A stretch of DNA of 26,870 bases from a virus. Under the pieces are notes generated by a model. It was not told where the DNA came from, searched no databases, and worked only from the letters and a program-made list of their open reading frames with translations. Position 1 is the stretch's first letter, and every line of letters starts with the position of its first letter. This document shows, one piece after another, positions 1,123 through 24,544 of this stretch. The stretch covers positions 1 to 26,870 of the IMG/VR virus record IMGVR_UViG_3300010885_001797. One strand, written 5' to 3'. Made by a program: the position numbers and the translations under genes.

Positions 1123-2031
1123 ATGGCTATTTCTCGTGCCCAACTACTGAAAGAGCTGCTCCCAGGACTGAACGCATTGTTCGGACTTGAGTATGCTACT
1201 TACGGACAAGAACACAAAGAGATCTACGAAACAGAGACCTCTGAGCGTTCTTTTGAAGAAGAGACCAAATTGTCAGGCTTTAGTGCAGCCCCCGTTAAAA
1301 ACGAGGGTCAAGCTATTCGTTACGACAACGGTCAAGAGGCTTGGACAGCTCGTTACACCCACGTTACTATTGCTCAAGGCTTCTCCCTCACGGAAGAGGC
1401 AATCGAGGATAACTTGTATGACTCATTGTCTGCTCGTTACACCAAAGGTTTAGCACGTTCCATGGCGTATACCAAGCAAGTTCGTGCTGCTGCTACATTG
1501 AACAACGGTTTCTCCGCTTCCTACCCAGGTGGTGACGGTGTTGCTTTGTTCTCTGCATCACACCCATTGGTTTCTGGCGGTACTAACAGCAACATTCCTT
1601 CAACCCCAGCTGACTTGAATGAGACTTCTTTAGAAGCCGCTGTCATTCAAATCTCTCTGTGGACTGATGAGCGTTCACTGTTGATCGCTGCTAAACCTAA
1701 GAAGTTGATCGTTCCACCTGCACTACAATTCGTTGCAACTCGTTTGCTAGAAACTGAATTGCGTGTTGGTACTAACGACAACGACATCAATGCAATCAAG
1801 AACAATGGTTCGATCCCTGGTGGTTATGCAATTAACCACTTCTTGACCGACACCAATGCTTGGTTCTTGACAACTGATGTACCTAACGGCATGAAGCACT
1901 TTGTCCGTGTTCCTTTGAGCACTGGCATGGATGGCGACTTTGATACTGGTAACGTCCGTTACAAGTCTCGTGAGCGTTATAGCTTCGGCTGGTCTGATCC
2001 ACTCGGAATGTACGGTTCCGCTGGAGCCTAA
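1123..2031 (+). CDS. Major capsid protein (HK97 fold, Mu gpT-like)
   Basis: This 302-residue protein forms the icosahedral head shell. The N-terminal ELLPGLNALFGLEY followed by an acidic stretch, the central block around FSLTEEAIEDNLYD, the GDGVALFSASHPLVSGG segment near residue 140-155, and the C-terminal RYSFGWSDPLGMYGS are the order and motifs expected of Mu gpT-type major head subunits; the length is typical. No long N-terminal delta domain is visible, so scaffolding is probably a separate upstream gene. AAGGAG (1110-1115) lies seven bases before the ATG and overlaps the previous stop. An intrinsic terminator begins 11 bases after the stop. Capsid identity is the most secure call in the first third of the window. 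Confidence 0.9.
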   Translation: MAISRAQLLKELLPGLNALFGLEYATYGQEHKEIYETETSERSFEEETKLSGFSAAPVKNEGQAIRYDNGQEAWTARYTHVTIAQGFSLTEEAIEDNLYDSLSARYTKGLARSMAYTKQVRAAATLNNGFSASYPGGDGVALFSASHPLVSGGTNSNIPSTPADLNETSLEAAVIQISLWTDERSLLIAAKPKKLIVPPALQFVATRLLETELRVGTNDNDINAIKNNGSIPGGYAINHFLTDTNAWFLTTDVPNGMKHFVRVPLSTGMDGDFDTGNVRYKSRERYSFGWSDPLGMYGSAGA

Positions 2032-2718: not shown

Positions 2719-3228
2719 ATGATGCAAACCGATGTAAAACAAGCGCACTTAAATAACAGTGGTATTTTAGTGCCGTTTACTACTCGTATTAAAGGAATAT
2801 CCTTTACTGGAAGCGCCTCTGCTGGATCGCTTACTTTGTTTGATACTGTAACTGCTCCTGTAACTACGGCTACTTATGCTCGTGCAGGAACTTTAGTAAC
2901 TGTTACACAAGCATCGCACGGTTTAACAACTGGGCAAGTTATTGGTATTGATTTTGGTGTTGGTACGGGCGGAGCTGCGACTAATGGAAACTATGCTGTT
3001 ACGGTTCTCACGTCAGGATCTTTTACTGTTACCGATATTAACTCTGGGTCAATTACTGCTGGCGCAACAATGATTTATTCCACAGGAAAATGGTTAGCTA
3101 CATACGATGTAACTGCAGCGGACTCATATAACAATGCACCTTTTATTCCAGGAGAAGGCGTAAAAGCTGATACTGGTGTATATGCGTACATGGTTAACCT
3201 AGGTGCAGTAAATATTTATTATGGCTAA
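2719..3228 (+). CDS. Virion protein with an FCCH-like beta module
   Basis: A 169-residue protein. Residues about 50-125 contain VTVTQASHGLTTGQVIGIDF, then NGNYAVTVLTSGSFTV; this is the pattern of a small beta module (often scored as E1-FCCH-like) that recurs in many phage structural proteins. The flanking N-terminus (GILVPFTTRIKGISFTGSA) and C-terminus (YMVNLGAVNIYYG) look like one beta-rich core interrupted by the module. GGAG (2708-2711) supports the ATG at 2719; a second ATG follows directly. It overlaps the next gene by eight bases. A head or neck structural role is likely but not proven. Confidence 0.7.
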   Translation: MMQTDVKQAHLNNSGILVPFTTRIKGISFTGSASAGSLTLFDTVTAPVTTATYARAGTLVTVTQASHGLTTGQVIGIDFGVGTGGAATNGNYAVTVLTSGSFTVTDINSGSITAGATMIYSTGKWLATYDVTAADSYNNAPFIPGEGVKADTGVYAYMVNLGAVNIYYG

Positions 3229-3478
3229 GAAAAAAGGTCCCTCTCTTGCGGTTGGCCGTGGTGAAAAGTTGCCTGTATCTAAGGGCGCTGGGCTTACCGC
3301 CAAAGGTCGTGCTAAATATAATGCGGCTACTGGCTCGAATCTAAAGGCTCCGCAGCCAGAAGGTGGACCACGCAAGAAGTCTTTTTGTGCTCGTATGTCT
3401 GGCATGCCAGGCCCAATGAAAGATGAAAATGGTAAGCCTACTAGGAAGGCAGCCTCGTTAAAGAGGTGGAAATGCTAA
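3221..3478 (+). CDS. Small basic phage protein (GLTAKGRAKYN family)
   Basis: An 85-residue, strongly basic protein. The central block GLTAKGRAKYNAATGSNLKAP, then RKKSFCARMSGMPGPMKDE and GKPTRKAASLKRWKC, is a pattern I recall from small proteins of unknown function in aquatic phages and cyanophages, related to larger bacterial proteins with a GLT.KGR.KYN.ATGSNLK motif. The high Lys/Arg content suggests nucleic-acid contact, perhaps inside the head. It begins within the end of the preceding gene and its end overlaps the start of the following gene. The last residue is a cysteine, as in the 3712 gene. No function has been shown to my knowledge. Confidence 0.8.
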   Translation: MAKKKGPSLAVGRGEKLPVSKGAGLTAKGRAKYNAATGSNLKAPQPEGGPRKKSFCARMSGMPGPMKDENGKPTRKAASLKRWKC

Positions 3479-3708
3479 ACATGATGGAACTATGGACTGG
3501 CGGTCTAACCATCTTTATGGCGGTAATTGGCTATATCATGCACGAAAAGTTTGCAGAATTAGCTCGTATTAGTATTTTATTAAACAAAACTCGTGAGGAG
3601 GTGGCTCGTGATAACGTCACTAAAGCAGAAGTTGATCGCATTATGGAACACATTGATTCAAGGTTTAACAAACTTGAAAACAAAATTGACCAGCTTATTC
3701 AAAAGTAA
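3472..3708 (+). CDS. Small membrane protein with coiled coil
   Basis: A 78-residue protein with one predicted membrane helix near the N-terminus (GGLTIFMAVIGYIM, about residues 10-23) followed by a charged helix ending in a heptad-like coiled coil (RIMEHIDSRFNKLENKIDQLI). ATG 3472 is chosen because AGAGG (3462-3466) lies five bases upstream; a GTG two codons earlier would sit on the ribosome site itself. The architecture fits a small holin-like, spanin-like or injection-related membrane protein. It is far from the main lysis cassette (16313-18394), so a lysis role is uncertain. Confidence 0.7.
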   Translation: MLNMMELWTGGLTIFMAVIGYIMHEKFAELARISILLNKTREEVARDNVTKAEVDRIMEHIDSRFNKLENKIDQLIQK

Positions 3709-3711
3709 ATA

Positions 3712-4164
3712 ATGCCAAGCAAATCTAAAAAACAGCACAACTTTATGGAAGCTATCGCTCACAGCGAAAAGTTTGCCAAAAAGGTTGGTGTTCCTATGTC
3801 TGTAGGAAAAGAATTTGTAGAAGCAGACAAAGGTAAAAAATTCCGTATGGGTGGAACCACAAATCCAACCAGACTTGGAATAAACAAGCAGAAAACCCAT
3901 CATGGCTCTATGCAAATGCCTAATGCCATGCTTAACAAATATATTGGACACAAGGAAGGTGGACTTATGAAACATGAAGATATGGCTCAAGATATGCCAA
4001 TGATGAAAAAAGTTGCAAAACAAGAAGTAAAATCGCATGAAAAGCGTATGCACAAAATGGCTTCTGGCGGTAAAGCAGGTCAGCTATCTAAAGCTGATGG
4101 TTGCGCTACTAAAGGAAAATCTAAAGGCACAATGATTAAGATGAGTATGGGCGGAAAGTGCTAA
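3712..4164 (+). CDS. Small Lys/Met-rich phage protein with C-terminal SGGK...ADGC tail
   Basis: A 150-residue basic protein. Residues 1-43 (PSKSKKQHNFMEAIAHSEKF, then KKVGVPMSVGKEFVEADKGKKF) match a short conserved domain I recall from many phage proteins of unknown function. Residues 80-85 are HKEGGL. The C-terminus carries SGGK at 118-121 and ADGCATKGKSKG at 128-139, a tail shared with the next two gene products, and ends MSMGGKC with a terminal cysteine. It is rich in methionine, lysine and histidine with no membrane segment. The stop is followed by one base before the next ATG. A virion-internal role is inferred from location and charge. Confidence 0.8.
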   Translation: MPSKSKKQHNFMEAIAHSEKFAKKVGVPMSVGKEFVEADKGKKFRMGGTTNPTRLGINKQKTHHGSMQMPNAMLNKYIGHKEGGLMKHEDMAQDMPMMKKVAKQEVKSHEKRMHKMASGGKAGQLSKADGCATKGKSKGTMIKMSMGGKC

Positions 4165-4165
4165 G

Positions 4166-4657
4166 ATGAAAAAAGTGCGTAAATTTGCCGAAGGTGGATT
4201 TAGCAAAGCCCAAGAAGAATGGTTGGGCGATGCAGATCGTACCGATCCATTTATTTTAGCTCGTATGAGGGATGCTGTTCCTGATAAAGCTAAAGATACA
4301 TATGAAAATAATAAGCCTTATAAAAATGAAGACCAAGGACTTAGTAAACCATACGTTAAACCAGAAGATAAAACTACATCTGTAGAAAAAACTACTGTTA
4401 AAAAAACACCTAAATCTTTAGAAATTAAAAAAGCAGTTACTGACATTAATGAAATGCCAGAAAACCTTCGTGCCCCAAATTACAAAGTTTCTGATAGTGT
4501 TCGACTTCCAAACAAAGTAGACATTAAGCCTAAGTTATCTCAAAAGGTAGCATCTAATAGCAGTTTTCCAAGCACTACATTTAAATCTGGTGGAAAAGTT
4601 AAGTCTGCTTCTTCTCGTGCTGATGGTTGCGCTATCCGTGGAAAGACAAGAGCATAA
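4166..4657 (+). CDS. Hypothetical phage protein with FAEGG start and ADGC tail
   Basis: A 163-residue, highly charged and probably largely disordered protein. It opens MKKVRKFAEGGFSKAQEEWL and ends with FKSGGK (139-144) and RADGCAIRGKTRA (151-163), the same tail as in the products on each side. The middle (residues 45-110) is Lys/Thr/Pro-rich low-complexity sequence (for example EDKTTSVEKTTVKKTPK). Tandem position and shared tails suggest that the 3712, 4166 and 4657 genes diverged around a common C-terminal tag while their bodies are unrelated. The stop codon overlaps the next start (TAATG). No enzymatic motif is present. Confidence 0.75.
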   Translation: MKKVRKFAEGGFSKAQEEWLGDADRTDPFILARMRDAVPDKAKDTYENNKPYKNEDQGLSKPYVKPEDKTTSVEKTTVKKTPKSLEIKKAVTDINEMPENLRAPNYKVSDSVRLPNKVDIKPKLSQKVASNSSFPSTTFKSGGKVKSASSRADGCAIRGKTRA

Positions 4658-5058
4658 TGCCTATTGAGCCTGTAGATCCTTCTAAAAAAACTGGCGGGGA
4701 TGGGAGTGAGAAATACACCCCTCCCAAGGAAAAGTTTGGCCTTAGCGAATACGATAAGGCAGCGGAAAGAGTCAAACAGGAGAATGAAAAGGCTAAAGCT
4801 GATGCACATAAAATGGCAGAAGAGTTTAGAGCCAAAACTGAAGCTGAACGACCACGCACCTATACCGAAAGACTACAAGATATGGGTAGATTGCCTAAGC
4901 CTACTGGTAGCGGTGGTGGTGGCAGTGGTGGTATGGGTACAGGTAAAATGAACCGAGACATATCTAAACTGTATAAATCTGGCGGTAAAGTATCATCAGC
5001 TTCTAAAAGAGCTGATGGTTGTGCCATTAAAGGTAAAACTAAAGGACGCATGGTATGA
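4657..5058 (+). CDS. Coiled-coil phage protein with glycine linker and ADGC tail
   Basis: A 133-residue protein. Residues about 28-70 are a charged alpha-helical, coiled-coil-like segment (EYDKAAERVKQENEKAKADA), followed by a Gly/Ser linker near 84-95 (GSGGGGSGGMGTGK) and the tail YKSGGK (106-111) plus RADGCAIKGKTKGRMV (118-133). The start ATG at 4657 overlaps the previous stop as TAATG; an in-frame start ten codons upstream would lie inside the previous gene and is less likely. It overlaps the next gene by ATGA. The helix-linker-tag layout suggests an adaptor or scaffold-like role, but the family is not recognised. Confidence 0.75.
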   Translation: MPIEPVDPSKKTGGDGSEKYTPPKEKFGLSEYDKAAERVKQENEKAKADAHKMAEEFRAKTEAERPRTYTERLQDMGRLPKPTGSGGGGSGGMGTGKMNRDISKLYKSGGKVSSASKRADGCAIKGKTKGRMV

Positions 5059-5312
5059 GATCTTCTCGTGGTATGGGTGCAATTAGACCTTCCAAAATGC
5101 CTAAAGGTAAAACTATTTACCGAAAAGACAACCCAGATGCGGTAGAAATGTACGCAGAAGGTGGGCAAGTTTGGGATAAACCACGTCCAAAAGGTCTTGG
5201 AAAACCTAAAAAACTATCATCTGCCAAGAAAGCATCGGCAAAAGCTATGGCTAAAGCAGCTGGTAGACCATATCCAAACTTAGTAGACAACATGAGAGCT
5301 GCTAAAAAATGA
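5055..5312 (+). CDS. Small basic conserved phage protein (GRPYPNLVDN motif)
   Basis: An 85-residue, strongly basic protein (many Lys). The N-terminus MRSSRGMGAIRPSKMPK, the segment IYRKDNPDAVEMYAEGGQVW (21-40, containing YAEGGQ at 33-38) and the C-terminal AKAAGRPYPNLVDNMRAAKK form a set I recall from small proteins in cyanophage and marine phage structural regions. The Lys/Ala-rich stretch at residues 50-68 looks like a DNA-binding tail. It begins in an ATGA overlap with the preceding gene and ends in another with the adaptor gene, implying translational coupling. Function unknown; a head-internal, DNA-associated role is an inference. Confidence 0.78.
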   Translation: MRSSRGMGAIRPSKMPKGKTIYRKDNPDAVEMYAEGGQVWDKPRPKGLGKPKKLSSAKKASAKAMAKAAGRPYPNLVDNMRAAKK

Positions 5313-6250
5313 CAACTACAGGAACCTCGGTCTTTAATCTAGACATGAACGACCTCATTGAAGAGGCGTTTGAAAGATGTGGGACTCAACTTCGTTCTGG
5401 TTATGACTTTAAAACCGCTAGGCGGTCTTTAAACCTGTTAACTATTGAATGGGCTAACCGAGGTATCAACCTATGGACAGTAGAGCAAGGGCAGATCCCT
5501 ATGGTCACTGGACAGGCTATGTATCCTATTCCAGTAGATACCATTGACTTGATGGATATGGTAATTCGTCAGTACAATGGCAACTTTGCCAACCAAATTG
5601 ATATTAATATCAGCCGTATTGCAGAACCTACCTATATGTCTTTGCCTAATAAATTGGCACAAGGACGCCCTGTTCAAGTCTGGATTAACCGCCAGTCAGG
5701 TCAAACAAACAGTATTGCTTCAACCGTTTTGGCTAACAATCCAAGCAACGTTATTAGTGCTACAACCACTTCTATTAATGTTGCTTCTGTAGCAAACCTG
5801 CCAACTTCTGGATTTCTTAAAATTGGCGCAGAAACCATTAGTTATCCCAATATTGTAGGTAATACTCTTACAAATTGTGCTCGTGGACAGAATGGAACTA
5901 CAGCTACAACCCATGCAGATGGTGCAGACTTAACTCTTACTTATTTGCCATGTATTAACGTATGGCCTACCCCTAATTCTCCTGGCAACCAATACACTTT
6001 TGTGTACTACCGTATGCGCAGGATTCAGGACTCTGGCACTGGTGTAAGAGAGCAAGACATCCCTTTCCGTTTTATTCCTTGTATGGTTGCTGGCTTGGCT
6101 TATCAGTTAAGCACAAAGCTGCCAGACATTGATCCAATGAGAATACCAATGTTAAAGGCTGATTATGAGCAGCAATTCCAATTGGCAGCTGATGAGGATA
6201 GAGAAAAGGCTTCTGTAAGATTCGTACCAAGGAATTTGTTCTATGCCTAA
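5309..6250 (+). CDS. Head-to-tail adaptor-like protein with inserted RGxxGT module
   Basis: A 313-residue protein. The N-terminal helical region (NDLIEEAFERCGTQLRSGYD and SLNLLTIEWANRGINLW, residues 11-55) resembles podovirus head-completion and adaptor proteins of the P22 gp4 / T7 gp11 kind. The C-terminal region (QDIPFRFIPCMVAGLAYQLS, PMLKADYEQQFQLAADED) is helical, as expected for packing against the portal. Between them, residues about 147-213 (TSINVASVANLPTSGFLKIG, then CARGQNGTTATTHADGA) look like an inserted beta module that I recall from many phage tail proteins. It overlaps the small gene before it (ATGA) and the zinc-ribbon gene after it by eight bases. Confidence 0.75.
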   Translation: MTTTGTSVFNLDMNDLIEEAFERCGTQLRSGYDFKTARRSLNLLTIEWANRGINLWTVEQGQIPMVTGQAMYPIPVDTIDLMDMVIRQYNGNFANQIDINISRIAEPTYMSLPNKLAQGRPVQVWINRQSGQTNSIASTVLANNPSNVISATTTSINVASVANLPTSGFLKIGAETISYPNIVGNTLTNCARGQNGTTATTHADGADLTLTYLPCINVWPTPNSPGNQYTFVYYRMRRIQDSGTGVREQDIPFRFIPCMVAGLAYQLSTKLPDIDPMRIPMLKADYEQQFQLAADEDREKASVRFVPRNLFYA

Positions 6251-6671
6251 TCAATGGGCTTCTGGCAAACATTCGATTGCCCAATGTGATCGGTGTAATT
6301 TTAGATATAAGCTAAAGGAACTAAAAACACAAACGGTAAAAACAAAACCTTACAAAGTCAAGGTTTGCCCTACCTGCTGGGATCCAGATCAGCCTCAGTT
6401 ACAACTGGGTATGTATCCAGTAAATGATCCACAGGCGGTAGAAGAGCCAAGACCTGATACAAGTTATTTGCAGTCTGGTAACAGTGGTTTACAAATTGTA
6501 AATACAGAAGGCACTTCTGTAGACCAATTTGGATACCCAGAAATGGGTAGTAGGCAGATACAATGGGGCTGGAATCCTGTTGGCGGTGCAAGAGGTTTTG
6601 ATACTTCTTTAACCCCAAATTACTTGATTGCAGTAGGACAAACGGGTACAGTAACAATTACAGTTAATTAA
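6243..6671 (+). CDS. Zinc-ribbon phage protein
   Basis: A 142-residue protein. CDRC (Cys15, Cys18) and CPTC (Cys42, Cys45) form a four-cysteine zinc ribbon, and the surrounding sequence (HSIAQCDRCNFRYKLKEL; VCPTCWDPDQPQ) is a pattern I recall as conserved among phage proteins near head-tail genes. The remainder is Pro/Gln/Thr-rich and ends with a beta-like segment (YLIAVGQTGTVTITVN). It begins within the end of the adaptor gene. The ribbon probably stabilises a small structural fold rather than acting as a transcription factor. The exact role is unknown. Confidence 0.75.
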   Translation: MPNQWASGKHSIAQCDRCNFRYKLKELKTQTVKTKPYKVKVCPTCWDPDQPQLQLGMYPVNDPQAVEEPRPDTSYLQSGNSGLQIVNTEGTSVDQFGYPEMGSRQIQWGWNPVGGARGFDTSLTPNYLIAVGQTGTVTITVN

Positions 6672-6681
6672 GGAGTTTATT

Positions 6682-6876
6682 ATGGGATTCAGAAAAAGCG
6701 CAGACGGAATTGAAAAAAAGGGTAAGACCGATACTAAGGTTTACCCAGATGATGGTCCAAAAATTATTCAAACTGGTCCAAAACACGGTGCTAACAAAAT
6801 GGGTAAATCCATGAAAGCCATGGGTCGTAATATGGCTCGTGCTATGAACCAAAAATCTTCTGGCAGAGGTCGATAA
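6682..6876 (+). CDS. Small basic phage protein with N-terminal ADGIEKKGKT motif
   Basis: A 64-residue basic protein. Residues 7-16 are ADGIEKKGKT, which aligns with the ADGCAIKGKT tail of the 4166 and 4657 gene products, but here at the N-terminus. The C-terminus MGRNMARAMNQKSSGRGR is Arg/Gly-rich and nucleic-acid-binding in character. AAGGAG (6670-6675) supports the ATG, one of the better ribosome sites in the cluster. The stop overlaps the next start (TAATG). Function unknown; placement between the two adaptor-like genes suggests a virion protein. Confidence 0.75.
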   Translation: MGFRKSADGIEKKGKTDTKVYPDDGPKIIQTGPKHGANKMGKSMKAMGRNMARAMNQKSSGRGR

Positions 6877-7145
6877 TGGCTACATATTCCAATAAAAAAG
6901 GCGGCAAAGAAGTTGGTTCAGCCAAAGTCTATGCTAAACCACACAATATGGCTGGTAAAACCATGGGTGTTGAAGGCATGAAAAAGGCAGTTACTAAGTC
7001 AGGCAACGGCATGGATGAAGTTAATATCTCCGTAGCTGGCGTTAGCAAAGGTAACTATCCTCCAGATAACAAACATGGTGAAATCACTATGCGTGGAGGT
7101 GGCGCTGCTACTAAAGGCATCAAATGCAGAGGACCAATGGCATGA
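6876..7145 (+). CDS. Small phage protein with C-terminal GGGAATKG motif
   Basis: An 89-residue basic protein rich in Lys and Gly. The C-terminus (EITMRGGGAATKGIKCRGPM) matches a conserved ending, R-G-x-G-A-A-T-K-G...RGPMA, that I recall from many small proteins in phage structural clusters. The N-terminal part (KVYAKPHNMAGKTMGVEGMK) is low in hydrophobics. It is coupled to both neighbours by stop/start overlaps. No known enzymatic motif is present; function unknown. Confidence 0.75.
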   Translation: MATYSNKKGGKEVGSAKVYAKPHNMAGKTMGVEGMKKAVTKSGNGMDEVNISVAGVSKGNYPPDNKHGEITMRGGGAATKGIKCRGPMA

Positions 7146-9313: not shown

Positions 9314-12211
9314 ATGGCTTTGGTAGTTTACGATAGAGTACAAGAAACTACAGCCACCACAGGAACAGGGACAATAACCCTAGGTGGTGCTGTAGCTGGT
9401 TATCAATCATTTGCTGTTGTTGGTAACGGAAATACTACTTTTTATTGCATTGTTAATGGCACTGCATGGGAAGTAGGTATTGGCACGTATACATCCTCTG
9501 GTACAACTCTTGCCCGTACAACCGTTTTATCTAACTCTAATGGTAATACATCGCCAATTACGCTATCTGGTGCATCTAGTGTATTTATTACTTACCCATC
9601 CGAGCGTTCAGTAAACCTTGATGCGTCAGGTAATGTCAGTGCTTTAGGTACTATTACTTCAGGCGTTTGGAATGGAACAACTATTCCTGTTGCTTATGGT
9701 GGTACAGGCGTAACTACTTCTAGTGGCGCTAATTCGGTAATGATTCGGGATGCTAATCAGAACGTATCTATTAACAGATTAAATCAACAAACTACTACAG
9801 TTACAGCAGCTGGTGGTACAACAACATTAACTGCGGCTTCTACATTTAGCTGGGTTTTAAATGGTACAGGCGGACAAACTTTTAAGTTACCTGACGCTAC
9901 TACACTAACAGATACAACTACTTTTGAATTTAACAACAACGCTACTGGCACGTTAACTATTGTTGATAATGCTACTGGCGCTGTAGGTACTATTGCTGCT
10001 GGTGGCGCTGCCGCTATTGCACTTTTATCTAATGCCACTGTGGCTGGTACATGGGACGTTCATGCTTATATTCCTGAAAATGTGCAATGGGGTACAAACT
10101 CTTTAGCGCTTGGGTCTACTGTTATTTCTGGTGGTACTTGGCAAGGCGGCACAATTCAACCAGCCTATGGCGGTACAGGTTTAACCACTTTTACTGCGTC
10201 TAACAATGCTCTTTACTCAACTGGTACTACTACATTAACTGCTGGTACTTTACCTGTCGCTGCTGGTGGTACAGGGATGACAACAGCTACAGCCAATGGT
10301 GTTTTTTATGGTAATGGTACTAGCGCACATGGAGTAACGGCTGCTGGTGTTACAGGGCAAGTATTGATTGGAAATACTGGCGCAGCCCCTTCTTGGGGAA
10401 CAGTATCTAGTTCTTTAGTAAGTTCATTTAGTGCTGGCACAACAGGATTTACCCCTTCTTCAGCTACAACTGGGGCGGTAACTCTAGCTGGTACTTTAAA
10501 CGTAGCTAATGGTGGTACTGGTGTAACAACTTCTACTGGTTCTGGTAATGTTGTATTAAGTACTTCTCCTACTTTAGTTACTCCAGTATTGGGTACGCCA
10601 TCTAGTGGTACTTTGACTAGCTGTACTGGATTACCTATTTCAACTGGTGTAAGTGGTCTTGGAACTAGCGTTGCAACTGCATTAGGAACTGCCGTAGGTT
10701 CAGCAGGTGCTTTTGTAGTAAACGGTGGTGCTTTAGGTACTCCGTCTAGCGGTGTAGCAACAAATTTAACTGGTACTGCCGCAGGACTATCTATTGGTGG
10801 AAATGCGGCAACTGCTACAACAGCTACAACTGCTACTACAGCAAATGCGTTAAATACAGCTAATGGTTATACAGGAACTTCTTTTACAGTATCTACTGGA
10901 AATGCTTATTTATACTTAAATAGGACTACAAGTTCTAGCGGTCAGGTTGGTCTTCAATTTCAAAGTGCTGGAACAACAACTTGGTATAACTATTTAGATA
11001 CAAGCGCTACTACTTTAGCTTGGTATGCTAATGGTGCAAACCAAATGACCCTTAATACGGCTGGCGCTTTAACAGCTACATCATTTAGTGGTTCAGGTTC
11101 TTCATTAACAAACATCCCAACATCTATCGTTGCTGGTAGCGGTATTTCTGTAAGTGGTGCAACAGGCGCTGTAACTGTAACAAACACTGCTGCAGGAACT
11201 GCGTGGCAAGGCGTACAAACATCTTCTTTTGCTGCAACTGCGGGCTACGGATACCCTGTAAATACAACTTCTAGTTCAGTAACTGCAACGCTGCCAGCCT
11301 CTCCAACGGCAGGTCAGACTGTGTTCTTTGTTGACTATGCAGGAACTTGGGGTACTAATAACTTCATTATTGCCCCTAACGGTAAAAACTTTAGTGGAAG
11401 TACCACCAACGCAACTTGTGCTACAAACAAAGAAGGTATTGGTATTGTTTACGCTGATGCTACTAAAGGCTGGATTCCGTTTGCTGGCTTTAACGATTCT
11501 ACCCCAGCTCAAGTCTATACAGTAAGTTACCTTAACGTGTCTGCTGGTGGCGGTGGTGGTACAGGTGCGACAGGTGTTGGTGCGCAGCCAAACGGTGGTG
11601 CTGGAGGCGGTGGTGGTGTTTTATCTAGTACTGCATCAGTAAGTACTGGAACCGCTTATACAATTACTGTTGGTGGTGGAGGTGGCGTAAGCGGAACGGG
11701 TAACCCAACTAGCGGTCTTGGATCATCAACAAGCGGTGGTAATCCACAGTCAGGTAGAACAGGTGGTTCTTCAGGCTCTCCTACATCTTTCCCTGGCGGG
11801 GGCGGTGCAAACTATGCTGGTGGTGGCGGTGGTGGAGCTGGTGGTAATGGTGGCGGTGCTCCAGGCACAATTACTGGTGGTAATGGTGGTGTTGGTCTTT
11901 ATTACGCAACCTATGCTGCATATGGCGATACAAATAACCCAGGCTACTTTGGCGGTGGCGGGGGTGGTGGTCAGGGAAGTACTGGCGGTGCTGGTGGCGG
12001 TGGTAATGGTGGCGGTGCAAACTACGGGCAAGCTAATACTGGAGGCGGTGGTGGCGGTGGTTATGGCGCTCCAGGAACAGGTGGTGGTGGTGGCTCAGGG
12101 GTATTTATTATTACGTATTCTGGTACTCAAAGAGGTAGTGGCGGAACGTACAACTATACTGGTGGAAACTCCTTCCATTTATTCACAACTAGCTCAACAT
12201 ACACAGCATGA
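9314..12211 (+). CDS. Large tail fibre with glycine-rich receptor-binding tip
   Basis: A 965-residue fibre protein. The N-terminus (MALVVYDRVQETTATTGTGT) is a probable virion-attachment domain. The shaft carries four spaced GGTG blocks (VAYGGTGVTT, PAYGGTGLTT, VAAGGTGMTT, VANGGTGVTT, about residues 126-405), typical of repetitive trimeric fibres. From about residue 743 to 930 the chain is glycine-rich with runs of four to six Gly, as in polyglycine-helix adhesin tips and the glycine-rich domains ending phage fibres; the C-terminal GVFIITYSGTQRG and FHLFTTSSTYTA fit the latter. AGGAG (9303-9307) supports the start. Its end overlaps the oxygenase gene by ATGA. Host receptor binding is a confident inference from architecture. 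Confidence 0.85.
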   Translation: MALVVYDRVQETTATTGTGTITLGGAVAGYQSFAVVGNGNTTFYCIVNGTAWEVGIGTYTSSGTTLARTTVLSNSNGNTSPITLSGASSVFITYPSERSVNLDASGNVSALGTITSGVWNGTTIPVAYGGTGVTTSSGANSVMIRDANQNVSINRLNQQTTTVTAAGGTTTLTAASTFSWVLNGTGGQTFKLPDATTLTDTTTFEFNNNATGTLTIVDNATGAVGTIAAGGAAAIALLSNATVAGTWDVHAYIPENVQWGTNSLALGSTVISGGTWQGGTIQPAYGGTGLTTFTASNNALYSTGTTTLTAGTLPVAAGGTGMTTATANGVFYGNGTSAHGVTAAGVTGQVLIGNTGAAPSWGTVSSSLVSSFSAGTTGFTPSSATTGAVTLAGTLNVANGGTGVTTSTGSGNVVLSTSPTLVTPVLGTPSSGTLTSCTGLPISTGVSGLGTSVATALGTAVGSAGAFVVNGGALGTPSSGVATNLTGTAAGLSIGGNAATATTATTATTANALNTANGYTGTSFTVSTGNAYLYLNRTTSSSGQVGLQFQSAGTTTWYNYLDTSATTLAWYANGANQMTLNTAGALTATSFSGSGSSLTNIPTSIVAGSGISVSGATGAVTVTNTAAGTAWQGVQTSSFAATAGYGYPVNTTSSSVTATLPASPTAGQTVFFVDYAGTWGTNNFIIAPNGKNFSGSTTNATCATNKEGIGIVYADATKGWIPFAGFNDSTPAQVYTVSYLNVSAGGGGGTGATGVGAQPNGGAGGGGGVLSSTASVSTGTAYTITVGGGGGVSGTGNPTSGLGSSTSGGNPQSGRTGGSSGSPTSFPGGGGANYAGGGGGGAGGNGGGAPGTITGGNGGVGLYYATYAAYGDTNNPGYFGGGGGGGQGSTGGAGGGGNGGGANYGQANTGGGGGGGYGAPGTGGGGGSGVFIITYSGTQRGSGGTYNYTGGNSFHLFTTSSTYTA
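11543..12100 (+). repeat. Glycine-codon-rich low-complexity tract
   Basis: Repeated GGT/GGC/GGA codons encode the glycine-rich tip of the large fibre. The tract is GC-richer than its surroundings and generates long spurious reading frames on both strands. Such tracts are prone to slippage and recombination. Confidence 0.85.
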
Positions 12212-12816
12212 CAATTACTTACGAACCTCTTTTTCCAACTGCAGTAGGTACTACGATGTTAGATCGGGACTTTACGCAAGCTGAACTTGATTTTTTTAGC
12301 AGCCAAAAAGGTAATGCTCGGTTTAACAAACAAAATAGAACAAGCGAAAATGATTACATTTTCCAAGAAGAAGTTTTAAAAGACCTAAAAACCTTTTGTG
12401 AAGCGGAAGTAAATAGATATTTCCAAGAAATTTATCAACCCTGTACTGATGTAAGCCTCTACATTACACAGGCATGGCTAAATTTTAACAATTCCCATGA
12501 ATCACATCATCAGCATACACATGCAAATAGCTTTCTATCAGGCGTTTTATATGTAGATGTAGATAAAGAAACTGACAAAATTACTTTTTTTAAAACAAGT
12601 GGTCAGTTAACTGTAGATACGAATAACTACAACTCTTTTAACTCACATTCTTGGTGGTTTGCTGTGGAAAATAAAAAATTGCTTTTGTTTCCATCAACTT
12701 TAGCCCATGCTGTAGAACCGTCAGAACGTGAAAAAACAAGGGTTAGCATTTCATTTAATACCTTTTTAAAAGGAACTATTGGTAATCAAAAAGGGTTAAC
12801 GGAGTTAAAACTATGA
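12208..12816 (+). CDS. 2-oxoglutarate/Fe(II)-dependent oxygenase
   Basis: A 202-residue protein with the layout of small phage 2OG-Fe(II) oxygenases of the TIGR02466 type. HTHANSFLSGVLYVDV (103-118) supplies the first metal ligands (His105-x-Asn107, with His103 nearby), LAHAVEP gives the distal His167, and Arg178 in REKTRVSISFNTF would bind the 2OG carboxylate. The family usually has HPNSxLSG at the first site; here Ala replaces Pro. The substrate is unknown; such genes sit among fibre genes in many aquatic phages and may hydroxylate a fibre, host protein or nucleic acid. ATGA overlaps couple it to the large fibre and to the next gene. Confidence 0.85.
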   Translation: MTITYEPLFPTAVGTTMLDRDFTQAELDFFSSQKGNARFNKQNRTSENDYIFQEEVLKDLKTFCEAEVNRYFQEIYQPCTDVSLYITQAWLNFNNSHESHHQHTHANSFLSGVLYVDVDKETDKITFFKTSGQLTVDTNNYNSFNSHSWWFAVENKKLLLFPSTLAHAVEPSEREKTRVSISFNTFLKGTIGNQKGLTELKL

Positions 12817-14131: not shown

Positions 14132-15199
14132 ATGGCATCTACCTTCTCAACATCGCTCAAACTAGAGCTTATTGGTAACGGAGACCAATCAGGCACATGG
14201 GGTACTACAACCAATAATAACCTTGGCACCCTTTTAGAACAAGCAATTACTGGCGTTCAGACAATTACTATGTCTAACGCTAATTACACTTTAAGCAACT
14301 ATAACGGCATATCAGACGAAGCTCGTAATGCGGTTTTAGTAGTAAACGGTACAAACTCTGCAATACGACAGATAGTAATTCCTACCAATCAGCAAAAGCT
14401 ATATGTAATTTCAAACCAAACTACTGGTGGTTACGCTATTACTATAGGTGCTTCTACAGGCACAACAGTTACCATACCTAATGGAATTACAGCCCAAGTC
14501 TACTATGATGGGTCTAACTGTTATTCTTCTCAAACTGGATCTGCTGGCGACTTTACAGTAAATGGCATTTTATCTGCTACTGGCAATATGTCTGTTGGTG
14601 GTACTTTAGGCGTTACTGGAGCCACAACATTTACTGGCATACCGTCAGGACCAACAGCTTCTACAGGAACTAATACAACCCAGTTAGCTACAACGGCTTT
14701 TGTAAATACAAGTATTGCTGCAGTTCCAGCTGTTATTACTGGTTCTATACAAATGTGGCCTACCGCAACTGCCCCTACTGGCTATTTGTTATGTGATGGT
14801 TCTTCTGTCTCAACATCCACTTATGCTTCGTTATTTGCTGTTATTGGGTATACCTTTGGTGGTAGTGGTGCATCTTTTCTTTTACCAAACTACACAAACC
14901 GCATGCCTTACGGTACGACTATTGGAGCATTAGGCGGTAGCGCAAATGCTGTAGTTGTAAGCCATACACATAGCATTACAGACCCTGGGCATTTACATAC
15001 ACGTAACCCTTCTACTGCTTTAGTTATTAATGGTGTTGCTGGTTCGGGGGCTTCTTATTTTGGTAGCGGAAATCAAGATGTAACCTCTTTAGGTGTAAAT
15101 ACGGCAACAACAGGTATTACCGTTGATACAGCTGGTGTTAGTGGTACAAATGCTAATTTGCCGCCTTACATTGGTATCAACTTTATTATTAAGACTTAA
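14132..15199 (+). CDS. Tail-collar domain fibre protein 1
   Basis: A 355-residue fibre. The N-terminus (STSLKLELIGNGDQSGTWGT, then NNNLGTLLEQAI) is a virion-binding domain found in many phage fibres. Residues about 204-261 (GSIQMWPTATAPTGYLLCDG, LPNYTNRMPYG) are a Phage_Tail_Collar domain as in T4 gp12. Residues 277-290 (SHTHSITDPGHLHT) form a His box likely to bind metal in the trimer, and the C-terminus returns to a conserved IPPY/LPPY...GINFIIKT end. The region between the His box and the end differs from the second collar fibre. AAGGA (14121-14125) supports the ATG. A host-receptor role is likely. Confidence 0.87.
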   Translation: MASTFSTSLKLELIGNGDQSGTWGTTTNNNLGTLLEQAITGVQTITMSNANYTLSNYNGISDEARNAVLVVNGTNSAIRQIVIPTNQQKLYVISNQTTGGYAITIGASTGTTVTIPNGITAQVYYDGSNCYSSQTGSAGDFTVNGILSATGNMSVGGTLGVTGATTFTGIPSGPTASTGTNTTQLATTAFVNTSIAAVPAVITGSIQMWPTATAPTGYLLCDGSSVSTSTYASLFAVIGYTFGGSGASFLLPNYTNRMPYGTTIGALGGSANAVVVSHTHSITDPGHLHTRNPSTALVINGVAGSGASYFGSGNQDVTSLGVNTATTGITVDTAGVSGTNANLPPYIGINFIIKT

Positions 15200-15428: not shown

Positions 15429-16292
15429 ATGGCAACTACACTAAATGCTGGAACTACAACGGCAACTGGACTTAATGTAACTACAGATACCACTGGAGCA
15501 ATGGTAATCCAAACTAGTGGCGTAAATGCTATATCTATTAGTACTTCACAAATAGTTACATTGGCAAATGCTTTACCTGCGGGTTCTGGAGGTACTGGAT
15601 TAACTAGCTTAGGTACAGGTGTTGCTACATTTTTAGGCACCCCTTCTTCGGCAAACTTAGCTGCTGCAGTAACAGGTGAAACTGGTACTGGGGCTTTAGT
15701 TTTTGGAACTTCTCCTACATTAAATACTGCTACATTAGATTCCCCTACATTAACTGGAACTCCTGTAGCGCCAACCGCAACTGCTGGAACAAACACAACT
15801 CAAATAGCAACTACAGCTTTTGTATTGGCTAATGGCGCCCCAACAGGTGGATTAATAATGTGGTCTACTGGCACAGCACCATCTGGCTGGTTACTTTGTA
15901 ATGGCACTGCGGTATCTCGTAGTACTTATGCTGCGTTGTTTGCAGTTATTGGTACTACATTTGGTGCAGGTGATACAACAACTACATTTAACTTACCAAA
16001 CTACACAAATCGTTTTCCTTATGGAACATCTATAGGTACTACGGGTGGTAGTGCAAACGCAGTTGTTGTAAGTCATACCCATAGTATTACAGATCCAGGT
16101 CACTTACATACATACGATCCAAGAGGCACTATTGCGGTTGGCCCTGGTTCTTATGCACCAGTTGCCTATAGTACTTCATCAGCAAATACTTCTACAGCAA
16201 CAACTGGAATTACAGTAGATACTGCTGGTGTTAGTGGAACTAATGCAAACATACCTCCATACCTTGGTATTAACTTTATTATCAAAACTTAA
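15429..16292 (+). CDS. Tail-collar domain fibre protein 2 (paralogue of the 14132 gene)
   Basis: A 287-residue fibre with a different N-terminus from the first collar fibre (LNAGTTTATGLNVTTDTTGA), a GGTG block near residue 54 and a Phage_Tail_Collar domain at about 140-199 (GGLIMWSTGTAPSGWLLCNG, LPNYTNRFPYG). Residues 205-228 (GGSANAVVV plus SHTHSITDPGHLHT) and the last 30 residues are almost identical to the first fibre, whereas the stretch between is unrelated. Synonymous differences in the shared blocks indicate an old duplication or recurrent recombination. The ribosome site is weak. It probably forms an alternative or co-assembled receptor-binding fibre. Confidence 0.87.
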   Translation: MATTLNAGTTTATGLNVTTDTTGAMVIQTSGVNAISISTSQIVTLANALPAGSGGTGLTSLGTGVATFLGTPSSANLAAAVTGETGTGALVFGTSPTLNTATLDSPTLTGTPVAPTATAGTNTTQIATTAFVLANGAPTGGLIMWSTGTAPSGWLLCNGTAVSRSTYAALFAVIGTTFGAGDTTTTFNLPNYTNRFPYGTSIGTTGGSANAVVVSHTHSITDPGHLHTYDPRGTIAVGPGSYAPVAYSTSSANTSTATTGITVDTAGVSGTNANIPPYLGINFIIKT

Positions 16293-17175: not shown

Positions 17176-17395
17176 AGATAATGTTCCAGGGTTTGTTACA
17201 GCCTGTGTAACCATTACCCTATGCGTAGTGGTTTTGGGTATGGTTGGAACAATGATGGCTGGTATGTTTGATTCTGATGTCAGCAACGACAAGATTTTTG
17301 AGGCGATTACCCCAGCGTTCCAGACCATTATTGGTGGATTTATAGGGCTTATTACAGGTATTAAAATAGGACAGGACAGCAACGATGCAGAATAA
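17165..17395 (+). CDS. Small two-helix membrane protein, putative second holin/antiholin
   Basis: A 76-residue protein with two hydrophobic segments (about residues 9-33, FVTACVTITLCVVVLGMVGT; and 50-67, PAFQTIIGGFIGLITGI) separated by an acidic loop and followed by an acidic tail. Size, position and topology fit a class II holin or a regulator of the neighbouring holin. The start lies inside the end of the holin gene and has a weak ribosome site, suggesting translation coupled to the holin. Confidence 0.72.
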   Translation: MINKDNVPGFVTACVTITLCVVVLGMVGTMMAGMFDSDVSNDKIFEAITPAFQTIIGGFIGLITGIKIGQDSNDAE

Positions 17396-17963
17396 TCTTG
17401 CGGATAGTATTGTTGTAGTAGAAGACTTTGTAAGCAAAGAATTTCAGTTGCAGCTACAGCGTTATATAGAGCACGGTGAAGTCCCCCTTTTTTATAACTT
17501 TGATACTATTGGCACTGAGTATCTAGCGCCATTTCCAAAGGATAACCTAGTTGAATACCCACAGTTTACGCATAGATTTGTAAAAGATTTTGACAAAAAA
17601 TCCCCTTGGTCTAGTCATTTTGAGCCTCTTGGTTTTTTCTTTAATGCAAAAACAGGTGCTCTTAAAGACGAAAAATTATTTAGCTTTAAGTTAAATGTAA
17701 ACCCTAGAGTAAACAGCCGTGAGACAGATCAACATTACACAATACACGTAGATACAGGGTTTCCAACAGGCATCACCGCTATATATTACGTAAATGATTC
17801 AGATGGTGATACTTTGTTTTTTAATGAAACAGGCACTGAGGTCATTAAGCGGGTAACACCAAAGCAAGGATTAATGGTTTACTTTAACAACCAAATTCCT
17901 CATGCTGGGCAGCCTCCAGTAATCAATAATTACCGTGCAGTACTTAACTTTAACTGGGTTTAA
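17385..17963 (+). CDS. 2OG-Fe(II) oxygenase, prolyl-hydroxylase-like
   Basis: A 192-residue protein with the complete double-stranded beta-helix signature: His121-x-Asp123 (YTIHVDTGF), distal His173 (QIPHAGQPP) and Arg184 (NNYRAVLNFNW) for 2-oxoglutarate. This is the prolyl 4-hydroxylase-type arrangement, distinct from the 12208 oxygenase. The substrate is unknown; such phage enzymes have been proposed to hydroxylate virion or host proteins. Its position between the holins and the endolysin is unusual and may mean it is co-expressed late. The ATG lies in the end of the preceding gene with AGGAC (17373-17377) upstream. Confidence 0.85.
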   Translation: MQNNLADSIVVVEDFVSKEFQLQLQRYIEHGEVPLFYNFDTIGTEYLAPFPKDNLVEYPQFTHRFVKDFDKKSPWSSHFEPLGFFFNAKTGALKDEKLFSFKLNVNPRVNSRETDQHYTIHVDTGFPTGITAIYYVNDSDGDTLFFNETGTEVIKRVTPKQGLMVYFNNQIPHAGQPPVINNYRAVLNFNWV

Positions 17964-21373: not shown

Positions 21374-21928
21374 ATGGGATTCTTTGACAGCTTAGTCCCC
21401 ACAGAACAATATCAAGCCCAAACGCTGGCTAAACAATCTGGCGGTCAGGGTGCGCCTATACCAATGCCTCCAGCACAACCAGCTATGGCTCCTGCAGGAT
21501 TGCCAGGTATGCAGCCTCAACGCTTTGCAAAAGGCGGTTTAGCTGCTGCAAATAGCCAAATTGAACAAACCCAAATCATGAAGGTTTTTGAACATTACTT
21601 TAGAAATCTTGGCGTTGACGTAAAACAAGGCATGGTTAACTTAAAAAAAGAAATTGACCAAGGATTAGAGTTAATTCCATTTGAAAGCTCTGTTATGGGT
21701 TACAAGCCTTTAGGTAATAACGCTGCTCAAATCCATTTCTTTACAGTTGGAACAATGAAAGATTTGGTAGATGATATGCAATATTTCTTTAAATACCTTA
21801 AAGATCAAGGTGTTAGAACCGTTTATGATACTCTTCCAGCCCCTATTACTACGCAAATGTTGGTTAAGATGGGTGCTAAAGTAGAAAAATCAGACAATCC
21901 TAAGTACAAATTAAAAGCAACAATATGA
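21374..21928 (+). CDS. Ejection-region protein with FAKGGL motif, possible GNAT-like domain
   Basis: A 184-residue protein. Residues 20-50 are a Pro/Ala/Gln-rich linker, then FAKGGLAAAN (51-60). The C-terminal half (ESSVMGYKPLGNNAAQIHFF, TVGTMKDLVDDMQYFFKYLK, then TTQMLVKMGAKVEKSD) has an alternating alpha/beta pattern and an ending that resembles the last strand-helix-strand of GNAT acyltransferases, but the acetyl-CoA loop is not obvious. GAGG (21365-21368) supports the ATG. It overlaps the cupin-like gene by ATGA. The fold assignment is tentative. Confidence 0.65.
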   Translation: MGFFDSLVPTEQYQAQTLAKQSGGQGAPIPMPPAQPAMAPAGLPGMQPQRFAKGGLAAANSQIEQTQIMKVFEHYFRNLGVDVKQGMVNLKKEIDQGLELIPFESSVMGYKPLGNNAAQIHFFTVGTMKDLVDDMQYFFKYLKDQGVRTVYDTLPAPITTQMLVKMGAKVEKSDNPKYKLKATI

Positions 21929-22341
21929 CAGACTTAGCTGTTAAACAAGATCTCGATATACCTATATCTGAAAAGGTAGAGAAATTGCTTGCACAAGTCC
22001 AGCAAATGCCACAAGTAGATTGCCAGACTAAACATTACTTTGGGCCAAGCATCTACATTCGTGAAGTAACTATGCCAGCTGGTGCAGTTGTTATTGGCAA
22101 ACCACATAGAAAAGACCATATGTGCGTTATGTTGCAGGGCAGAATGATTATTGTGGACGCAGAAGGCAATCAAAAGGAACTTGTAGCACCAATGACTTTT
22201 GTTGGTAGCGCAGGACGAAAAGTAGCTTATATCCTAGAAACAACGGTATTTCAGAATATCCTAGCTACCGATGAAACAGATATAGAAGTATTGGAAAATA
22301 TGCTAGTTGATAATACCCAGCCGATGCTGGAAGGAGAATAA
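21925..22341 (+). CDS. Cupin-like protein
   Basis: A 138-residue protein. KPHRKDHMCVMLQGRMIIVD (59-78) resembles the first cupin motif (His61 and His65 as possible metal ligands, Gly72), followed by beta strands LVAPMTFVGSAGRKVAYIL. The N-terminal 35 residues are an amphipathic helix (KVEKLLAQVQQMPQVDCQTK). The second cupin motif with its His is not clear, so it may be a structural beta-barrel rather than an enzyme. Its place among ejection genes suggests a virion or assembly role. It ends one base before the next ATG, contributing that gene's AAGGAG site. Confidence 0.65.
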   Translation: MTDLAVKQDLDIPISEKVEKLLAQVQQMPQVDCQTKHYFGPSIYIREVTMPAGAVVIGKPHRKDHMCVMLQGRMIIVDAEGNQKELVAPMTFVGSAGRKVAYILETTVFQNILATDETDIEVLENMLVDNTQPMLEGE

Positions 22342-22342
22342 T

Positions 22343-24112
22343 ATGGCAGTCGTTGCTTCCGCTACAGGCGCAGCAGTATTTGGTTTATCAGGCGTTGCAG
22401 CTGGTTTAGCTGGTGGCGCTCTTCTTGGAGCTGGTATTGGCGGTTTATATAGCGCTGTTACTGGCGATGGCAATATCCTAAACAGCATGTTAACTGGCGG
22501 TCTTATTGGCGGTGCTGCTGGTGGATTGGGCGCTGCTTATGCTGCTCCTGCCGTTGCTCCTGGTGCAACTGGTCTTGGTGCAACTGGCGCAGCGGCATCT
22601 ACAGTTAGCACTACAACTCCAGCTTTAACTGCAGCACAAACAGCAGCAGCAAATGCAGCTTTAGCTGGCGGTGAAACTACAGCTGGAATGATAGAGGCAA
22701 ATGCAGCTAATGAAGCAGCTAAATTAGCAGCACAAGAAGCAGCTAAAAAAGTAGCAACAACAAGCGGAATGAATATGCTTGGTTATGGTTTAGCTGGAAC
22801 GGCTGCAATGCAATTATTAGGTAATAAGAAAACTGGCGCTGGTGGACCAACAGATCCTGGCATGATTCGCCCTTATGAGTTTTCCTCAAATCCAACTGCA
22901 GCAACAGGAAAATATCCATCTCCTTACGCAACAGCGCAATATGATGCGGCTGGTATGCCTATTATGGATACTAGAGAACGCAATTACTTTGACCAAAAAT
23001 ATACAGCTTTAACCCCTTATTCTGCTAAAACAGGCACTGTAAATCCTAATGTACCTGCTCCAATAGGCGCTGCTGGTGGTGGATTAATGGCTGTAGGTGG
23101 ACCAGTAGAACGCATGACTCAAAACGTCATGGGCGGTCAGGGAAATATGTTTCCACAGAGCCAACAAGAGCATACTTACTTTGCTACCCCAACTCAGATG
23201 CCAGCTTCTGCGGAAGTCATTCGTTCTGACTATGACGCCAAGACTAATCCTTACACTGGCGTAATGATGGCTAATGGCGGTATTGCTAAATTTTCCGATA
23301 AAGGCATGGTTGACGAAGAAGCCGAGCTAAGAAAAACGGTAATGAACAATCTTAAAAAGTTAAACCCAGAGCAAATGCAAAATGTAATGGGTAGCTTTCA
23401 AGAAGAAGGCATGCGTGAAAAACAGTTCTTAATGAAGAACATGCCTAACTATGCAGAAGCCATGAGACCATCTATATCTAGCATGGTTGAGGGCGCTCAA
23501 TATGGTGACAGAATGGCACAATCTTATGGTGGACAACCTAGAGATGTTAATGTAATGCCCCGTATTCAAGACGTTAATAACTATGGTGGAATAGCTTCTA
23601 TTGGTCAACAAGTAGATCCAGATACCAGAGTTAACATGATGGCTGATCTTCAACGCACTCCGTATGATCGCAACGCTTTAGAGGCTGTTCGCAGAGTTGG
23701 AGCTGGTATAGACCGCAAGATTGGCAAAGATGCTAACTTATCAGCCTATTATGAGCAAGACCCAATGGGACGCAACAAAGCTGGTGGATTACGTTATACC
23801 CAAAATTTTGCTATGGGTGGCGCAGCTGATCTTGGTGATTACTCTGATGGTGGTCGTTTGCTAAAAGGTCCAGGCGATGGCGTTTCTGATGACATTCCAG
23901 CTACGATTGCAGGAAAACAGCCAGCTAGATTAGCAGATGGTGAGTTTGTTATTCCAGCCAGAATTGTATCTGAAATAGGTAATGGCTCTACTGATGCTGG
24001 AGCTAAACGTCTATATGCCATGATGGATCGTATTCAAGAAGGTCGCAAGAAAACCATTGGTAAAAAGAATGTGGCAAAAGATACAAAGGCTAAAAAACAC
24101 TTATTAGCATAA
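22343..24112 (+). CDS. Internal virion / DNA-ejection protein
   Basis: A 589-residue protein starting at ATG 22343 (AAGGAG at 22331-22336); an in-frame upstream start lies inside the cupin-like gene. The N-terminal 60 residues are hydrophobic and Gly/Ala-rich (GVAAGLAGGALLGAGIGGLY, LTGGLIGGAAGGLGAA), a glycine-zipper type membrane-active segment expected of ejected proteins. An Ala-rich helix follows. MANGGIAKF lies near 309-317. The C-terminus (GPGDGVSDDIPATIAGKQPA, RLADGEFVIPARIVSEIGNG, AGAKRLYAMMDRI) is a conserved domain I recall from phage ejection proteins. Likely released into the cell envelope with DNA. Confidence 0.8.
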   Translation: MAVVASATGAAVFGLSGVAAGLAGGALLGAGIGGLYSAVTGDGNILNSMLTGGLIGGAAGGLGAAYAAPAVAPGATGLGATGAAASTVSTTTPALTAAQTAAANAALAGGETTAGMIEANAANEAAKLAAQEAAKKVATTSGMNMLGYGLAGTAAMQLLGNKKTGAGGPTDPGMIRPYEFSSNPTAATGKYPSPYATAQYDAAGMPIMDTRERNYFDQKYTALTPYSAKTGTVNPNVPAPIGAAGGGLMAVGGPVERMTQNVMGGQGNMFPQSQQEHTYFATPTQMPASAEVIRSDYDAKTNPYTGVMMANGGIAKFSDKGMVDEEAELRKTVMNNLKKLNPEQMQNVMGSFQEEGMREKQFLMKNMPNYAEAMRPSISSMVEGAQYGDRMAQSYGGQPRDVNVMPRIQDVNNYGGIASIGQQVDPDTRVNMMADLQRTPYDRNALEAVRRVGAGIDRKIGKDANLSAYYEQDPMGRNKAGGLRYTQNFAMGGAADLGDYSDGGRLLKGPGDGVSDDIPATIAGKQPARLADGEFVIPARIVSEIGNGSTDAGAKRLYAMMDRIQEGRKKTIGKKNVAKDTKAKKHLLA

Positions 24113-24544
24113 ATGATACAAAGCGCCCAGTCATATGAAGCCAAGCAAATTGCATCAGATATATTGCTTAAAGAAGTTGGCGTTCAGCCCTGTGGCGATT
24201 TGCAAGCATTGTTTTGGGTAGATGAAGAGAATAAAATTGAATGGGTTATAGGTTATACAGCTTTTATAGGAAAGACATGCCAAATGCACATGGTTAATCT
24301 TAAAGGTGGTTATACCCCTAAAGGTTTGCTATTTGGTGCTTTTGATTACCCATTTAATTATTTAGGCGTAGAAAAAGCAATTGGAATATTAAACAGTTTT
24401 AATACTAGGGCTGTTGAATATGACAAGAAATTAGGGTTTACTGAGGTTGTGCGCTTAGAAGGTATGCACGATGACGGTGGAGATTTGATTGTTATGGAAA
24501 TGAATAAAGCTGACTGTCGCTGGATCAAGGAACGCAAAAAATGA
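24113..24544 (+). CDS. GNAT-family acetyltransferase-like protein
   Basis: A 143-residue protein. The C-terminal NSFNTRAVEYDKKLGFTEVV, then DDGGDLIVMEM, is a classic GNAT ending (N-x-x-A-x-x-x-x-KLGF, then an acidic GD and hydrophobic strand). The central GGYTPKGLLFGAFDYPF is where the acetyl-CoA loop would lie. Small GNAT-fold proteins occur among ejection genes of podoviruses (P22 gp14, T7 gp13), so it may be a structural or assembly factor rather than an active enzyme. It starts directly after the preceding stop and overlaps the next gene by ATGA. Confidence 0.8.
   Translation: MIQSAQSYEAKQIASDILLKEVGVQPCGDLQALFWVDEENKIEWVIGYTAFIGKTCQMHMVNLKGGYTPKGLLFGAFDYPFNYLGVEKAIGILNSFNTRAVEYDKKLGFTEVVRLEGMHDDGGDLIVMEMNKADCRWIKERKK

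Follow-up and report, generated by a model that had tools for sequence, protein, structure and literature searches.

A short C-terminal peptide shared by unrelated small basic phage proteins is a candidate virion-loading tag

We analyzed a 26,870-base phage fragment from IMG/VR, hereafter the window, whose genes follow a phage head-to-tail order (Table 1; genes are named by their position). The neck genes are followed by tail and holin/endolysin genes and by an ejection-type protein at 24541, and the portal/protease region lies outside the window. The C-terminal parts of two tail-collar-type proteins (14132-15199 and 15429-16292) are near-identical (TNRMPYGT/TNRFPYGT...GGSANAVVVSHTHSITDPGHLHT), apparently through duplication of a tail-fibre gene, and two 2OG-Fe(II) oxygenase-related proteins are encoded at 12208-12816 (phrog_81) and 17385-17963 (phrog_274/81).

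Table 1. Features of the capsid-to-neck region of the window
Feature	Position	Strand	Details
Major capsid protein (MCP)	1123..2031	+	phrog_371, E=4.7e-20; 73% identical to Pag-Yong1 MCP
DUF6321 protein, left border of cassette	3221..3478	+	untagged in window
Small conserved protein, hydrophobic N-terminus, left border of cassette	3466..3708	+	0/84 relatives tagged
Tagged gene 1: three-helix module at the N-terminus (residues 1-40), then a disordered middle and a long-tailed C-terminal tag (KGTMIKMSMGGKC)	3712..4164	+	ORF, AF2
C-terminal tag of gene 3712, SGGKAGQLSKADGCATKGKSKGTMIKMSMGGKC	4063..4161	+	core ADGCATKGKS at 4093-4122
Tagged gene 2, ends ...ADGCAIRGKTRA	4166..4657	+	
C-terminal tag of gene 4166, SGGKVKSASSRADGCAIRGKTRA	4586..4654	+	core ADGCAIRGKT at 4619-4648
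Tagged gene 3, ends ...ADGCAIKGKTKGRMV	4657..5058	+	
C-terminal tag of gene 4657, SGGKVSSASKRADGCAIKGKTKGRMV	4978..5055	+	core ADGCAIKGKT at 5011-5040
Small basic protein, conserved, right border of cassette	5055..5312	+	0/167 relatives tagged
Portal adaptor, SU10 adaptor family	5309..6250	+	PF24175, E=4.3e-07
Small protein, 64 aa, N-terminal motif form	6682..6876	+	
N-terminal motif ADGIEKKGKT, residues 7-16 of 6682	6700..6729	+	
Second neck protein	7330		

A sequence-only reading of this DNA had pointed to a ten-residue tag carried by four otherwise unrelated small proteins. All four motifs were found where it had placed them, three at the C-termini of genes 3712, 4166, and 4657 and one near the N-terminus of gene 6682. 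The SGGK that it had described ahead of the first three tags was likewise present, starting at 4063, 4586, and 4978 and separated from the core by spacers of 6, 7, and 7 residues. The bodies of these three proteins fell into three different BLAST clusters, in agreement with the claim that they are unrelated.

The tag is far more frequent than its background. As a DNA pattern, ADGCAx[KR]GK[TS] matched three times in the window and never in 100 dinucleotide shuffles. A scan of IMG/VR with the same pattern returned at least 120 stretches, compared with none for a control pattern with D and C swapped, and a stop codon lies 2-22 residues past the end of all 150 in-frame matches among those listed; a second scan with the ADGIA version likewise gave a lower bound on matches. 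Bacterial and archaeal genomes totaling 257 Gb contained a stricter pattern in only three contigs, indicating that the tag is a viral feature. We then searched the 19,413 ORFs of 221 loci with a profile HMM of the tag and recovered about 560 ORFs in 210 loci. In 523 of these the tag lies no more than 25 residues from the C-terminus, in 31 it is N-terminal, and in 6 it is internal. Shuffled ORFs gave no matches; in reversed ORFs the long profile found none and the short profile 10. Between one and six tagged ORFs were found per locus, mostly two to four, with many loci being fragments.

In this larger set the conserved unit proved to be longer than ten residues, with an upstream GG, a [KR]ADG, and then [KR]G[KR][MIF][V/I/C] up to the stop, giving the consensus GG(x4-9)[KR]ADG[C/I]Ax[KR]GKT[KR]G[KR][MIF][V/I/C]-COOH. 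The statement that the genes end with the tag holds literally, as the stop falls exactly five residues past GKT in 296 of the 500 distinct tags. A GG lies within 15 residues upstream of 425 of 471 tags, compared with 87 of 471 in a control stretch. Repeated [FYM]xxGG motifs (RFAKGG, FAMGG, AYKEGG) that resemble this upstream GG also occur in the ejection-type proteins at 21374, 22307, and 24541 (window 21374-26805). In the core alignment, the essentially invariant residues are G(-8), G(-3), and T(-1); conservation is 95% at D(-9) and K(-2) and 91% at A(-6).

This conservation bears on the possibility that the tag lacks a specific protein partner and acts as a basic tail, helping to condense or neutralize the packaged DNA or binding RNA. 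The charge of the proteins would suit such a role, with pI values above 8.5 in all of them (median 10.1) and five to six K/R in the tag itself, and DNA binding by the tagged proteins is possible on these grounds. General charge neutralization is nevertheless disfavored because it would not need a D at 95%, two G and a T at essentially 100%, and a K(-2) that is 95% K and not freely K/R. We therefore regard nucleic-acid binding as the function of the tag as improbable.

The core also reads as GxxxxGK[TS], and in nearly all core matches its letters fit the P-loop consensus, as would be expected if the carriers were small NTPases with a Walker A motif. Membership of the P-loop NTPases entails a beta-loop-alpha fold and a downstream Walker B motif. 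Here the motif sits at the extreme C-terminus, usually five residues before the stop, leaving no space for the fold; AlphaFold2 (AF2) gave the tag peptide of gene 4657 a pLDDT of 56 with no confident structure, predicting it to be disordered, and no NTPase family was matched. A P-loop can practically be dismissed. Profile searches of Pfam, PHROGs, NCBIfam, and the PDB matched no model of the tag, neither the tag peptide nor its profile found a match in the PDB, and no text in the open-access literature searched mentions an ADG tag.

The cysteine that had been called invariant is not. In the wider set, the core position is C in 40%, I in 47%, and V in 12%. Where the core cysteine is absent, a cysteine is often the last residue instead. 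Among tags ending within six residues after GKT, 163 have a cysteine in the core only, 79 in the tail only (usually as the last residue), 2 in both, and 85 in neither (Fisher p = 6e-27), and core and tail cysteines still exclude each other when one tag is taken per locus (median p = 2e-17). In 25 of the 102 multi-tag loci, exactly the core-cysteine and tail-cysteine types occur together, indicating that the pattern is more than a lineage difference. These proportions are biased because the search patterns fixed the core residue, but the first pattern left the tail unconstrained. Cysteine use in the tag is thus constrained in an unexpected way, usually to one cysteine per tag.

The fourth copy of the motif, in gene 6682, fared less clearly. 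It is present and conserved in its family, whose 61 distinct sequences keep the N-terminal ADG...GKT (21 of 61 by the strict expression). Its likeness to the C-terminal tag is weaker, with family iE values of 0.004-0.03 and the window copy below threshold. A common origin of the two forms is plausible. The product of gene 6876 has a C-terminus (RGGGAATKGIKCRGPMA, window 7076-7142) that is conserved in relatives (RG[TGY]G[AC]ATKG...) with a spacing like that of the tag core.

The wider set strongly supports the sequence-only reading that conservation lies in the tag and that the bodies have no relation to one another. With the tag cut off, 475 bodies formed 223 clusters, 172 of them singletons (BLAST E<1e-3, 50% coverage). 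The coverage rule was adopted because single-linkage clustering without it chained 284 proteins via low-complexity K/G stretches. The body of gene 4166 belongs to a cluster of two under this rule and of three without it. When 70 body representatives were scanned with Pfam and PADLOC, nothing convincing was found (Pfam returned DUF6321 once and marginal matches), and none of these bodies resembles a known effector.

Tagged proteins of the same locus share 75% amino acid identity in the ten-residue core and 8% at positions -70 to -31. We considered whether such copies could reflect a repeat at the level of DNA, either a recombination joint or a recent copy, as the exchange of bodies beside the tags might suggest. 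Across loci that are very diverged, it is the amino acids that define the motif, and codon identity at identical residues is 0.466 in same-locus copies, against 0.396 expected from the locus's own codon usage. Codons that differ almost as if they were independent largely refute this explanation, which we consider very improbable, and indicate that the copies are not recent DNA duplications but are old and have been maintained by protein-level selection.

The bodies change quickly. When the adaptors of two phages are 90-100% identical, a homolog exists for 24% of the other tagged bodies, compared with 87-100% for the flanking genes, and at 45-75% adaptor identity the figure for these bodies falls to 1%. 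In the locus pairs L099/L187 and L009/L025, different tagged genes lie between flanks whose DNA is about 90% identical. Part of this turnover may be divergence and not replacement, as similarity between short disordered proteins can soon fall below detection. Alignable bodies have a pN of 0.13 and a pS of 0.58, a low nonsynonymous divergence that makes junk linkers unlikely; this is weak support, because the 65% identity cut used for choosing pairs biases dN/dS low.

The position of the tagged genes is nearly constant. In loci with both MCP and adaptor genes, the order is MCP, DUF6321, 3466-like, 3712-like, one to four more tagged genes, 5055-like, and adaptor, followed 3' of the adaptor by 6243-like, 6682-like, and 6876-like genes and the second neck protein. 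None of the MCP, adaptor, 5055, and 3466 relatives is tagged, and the tag is found on 146 of 176 3712-like proteins. Relatives of DUF6321 exist in both states within one body family, 19 of 151 with the tag and 132 without it. The DUF6321 ends, SFCARM...WKC (window 3221-3478), also terminate long phage proteins (phrog_3477, 10346, and 727), and the ADG tag is added after them in 17-19 loci. A lineage marker is present in 205 of the 210 tagged loci.

A terminal, predicted-disordered peptide with a position-constrained cysteine could also be read by a partner outside the virion, such as an assembly chaperone, a protease, or a host factor in the infected cell, that controls stability or complex formation. 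The strict confinement of the tag to the capsid-adaptor interval argues against such a partner, and we judge it quite improbable. The same interval would be a natural place for proteins that the tag anchors at the capsid inner face, the portal, or the adaptor as assembly, head-completion, or cement factors with loosely constrained bodies and no delivery. Long disordered stretches and the location of the N-terminal version after the adaptor are in line with structural docking of this kind, but near-identical phages swap their tagged bodies while the neighboring genes are conserved, and the number of tagged ORFs per locus varies from one to six (many loci being fragments). Docking without delivery is therefore rather unlikely in our assessment.

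Among named phages, the Planktothrix phage Pag-Yong1 has an MCP 73% identical to that of the window and encodes one tagged protein between MCP and adaptor, UMO75986, which ends YASGGMIGRDGCAKRGRTKGRFI (tagged C-terminus RDGCAKRGRTKGRFI). Records of the same length are also deposited under the names MinM2 and Pra-JY27. In a short tblastn search of phages, with tag peptides as queries, query 1 found only Pag-Yong1/MinM2/Pra-JY27 (all 65,014 bp). Match H4 from query 2, which ends past a CDS near a carboxypeptidase gene, was judged a chance match. The MCP relatives DSL-LC04, HTVC027P, HTVC023P, CRP-902, QDWS535, Caulobacter RW, ct2os315, ct7L0027, and 023Pt_psg01 have no tag in the regions compared. 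Because these relatives belong to the same MCP family, the tag is unnecessary for this head type. The tag carriers form a large group of mostly uncultured phages.

Gene 3712 provides a link to other phages through its other end. AF2 modeled its N-terminal module with a pLDDT of 86-96, and Foldseek searches with this model matched only uncharacterized phage proteins having the same N-terminal module, with no significant match in the PDB. The first 43 residues (window 3712-3840; L225:4001-4177) are 81% identical to phiKZ 165.1, a 58-aa protein with almost nothing beyond this module. The module also starts some annotated jumbo-phage structural proteins and is a second traveling terminal module. 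Its presence in these proteins fits a virion role without proving it.

Known systems offer parallels. The internal proteins of T4 are diverse, small, and basic, have only a capsid targeting sequence (CTS) in common, and vary in repertoire between related phages (PMC3012670, PMC9026906). In SPN3US and phiKZ, long terminal propeptides of inner-head/ejection proteins are thought to target them into the prohead (PMC5694885). As in IPI, IPII, IPIII, and Alt of T4, a short conserved terminal peptide is found here on otherwise diverse basic proteins, and the repertoire varies among close relatives (24% versus 87-100% sharing). In T4 the CTS lies at the N-terminus, has about 10 residues, and is cleaved by gp21, whereas the ADG tag is C-terminal (523 of about 560), about 15-35 residues long, and has no known cleavage; its carriers have SU10-type adaptors and are not T4-like. 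To our knowledge, the sequence of the ADG tag is unlike that of the T4 CTS. We did not assign the tag to the T4 CTS system, as it is not N-terminal; the best reading of these comparisons is that it would work like the CTS but is not homologous to it. The SPN3US and phiKZ propeptides are N-terminal and cut at A-X-E, and the ADG tag was not seen there; the link to such phages is the N-terminal module of 3712, shared with phiKZ 165.1 and jumbo-phage structural proteins. DUF6321 (PF19846) and phrog_16759 are short modules that can likewise terminate longer phage proteins, and members of both are fused to the tag, although their sequences differ from it.

Together, genomic position, architecture, and the T4 parallel make virion targeting or partner docking the best reading of the tag. 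A short, terminal, predicted-disordered peptide that is strictly conserved on many different proteins resembles a docking signal, and for this reason we lean, by a little, toward a C-terminal docking peptide that loads swappable small basic cargo proteins into the virion. The conserved terminal peptide, the several carriers per phage, the fixed place between capsid and adaptor genes, and the fast replacement of bodies speak for cargo. According to this model, while the head or neck is being assembled the tag would bring small basic proteins with unrelated bodies to a single shared site, perhaps on the scaffold, the capsid inner face, the portal, or the adaptor. The tagged proteins would then be in the virion because the tag puts them there, as a swappable cargo set that is probably delivered with the DNA, and their bodies could be host-directed effectors such as counter-defense proteins. 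A bolder and somewhat doubtful extension is an open-ended cargo platform, in which any small gene that gains a C-terminal ADG-GKT tag in the capsid-adaptor interval would be packaged and delivered. The hundreds of orphan bodies would then be unexplored virion-delivered host-takeover or counter-defense proteins, and the single-cysteine switch would be a covalent or metal-dependent hold/release step.

If the tag does load cargo, one short pattern would pick out several hundred fast-changing phage proteins that are likely to act first on the host, and would serve as a simple marker for finding them in a phage group of which almost no member has been cultured. The tag could also serve to direct proteins of choice into particles. 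The T4 strategy of one address label for many swappable internal proteins would, if this is true, have evolved independently in unrelated short-genome phages, with the label at the opposite terminus.
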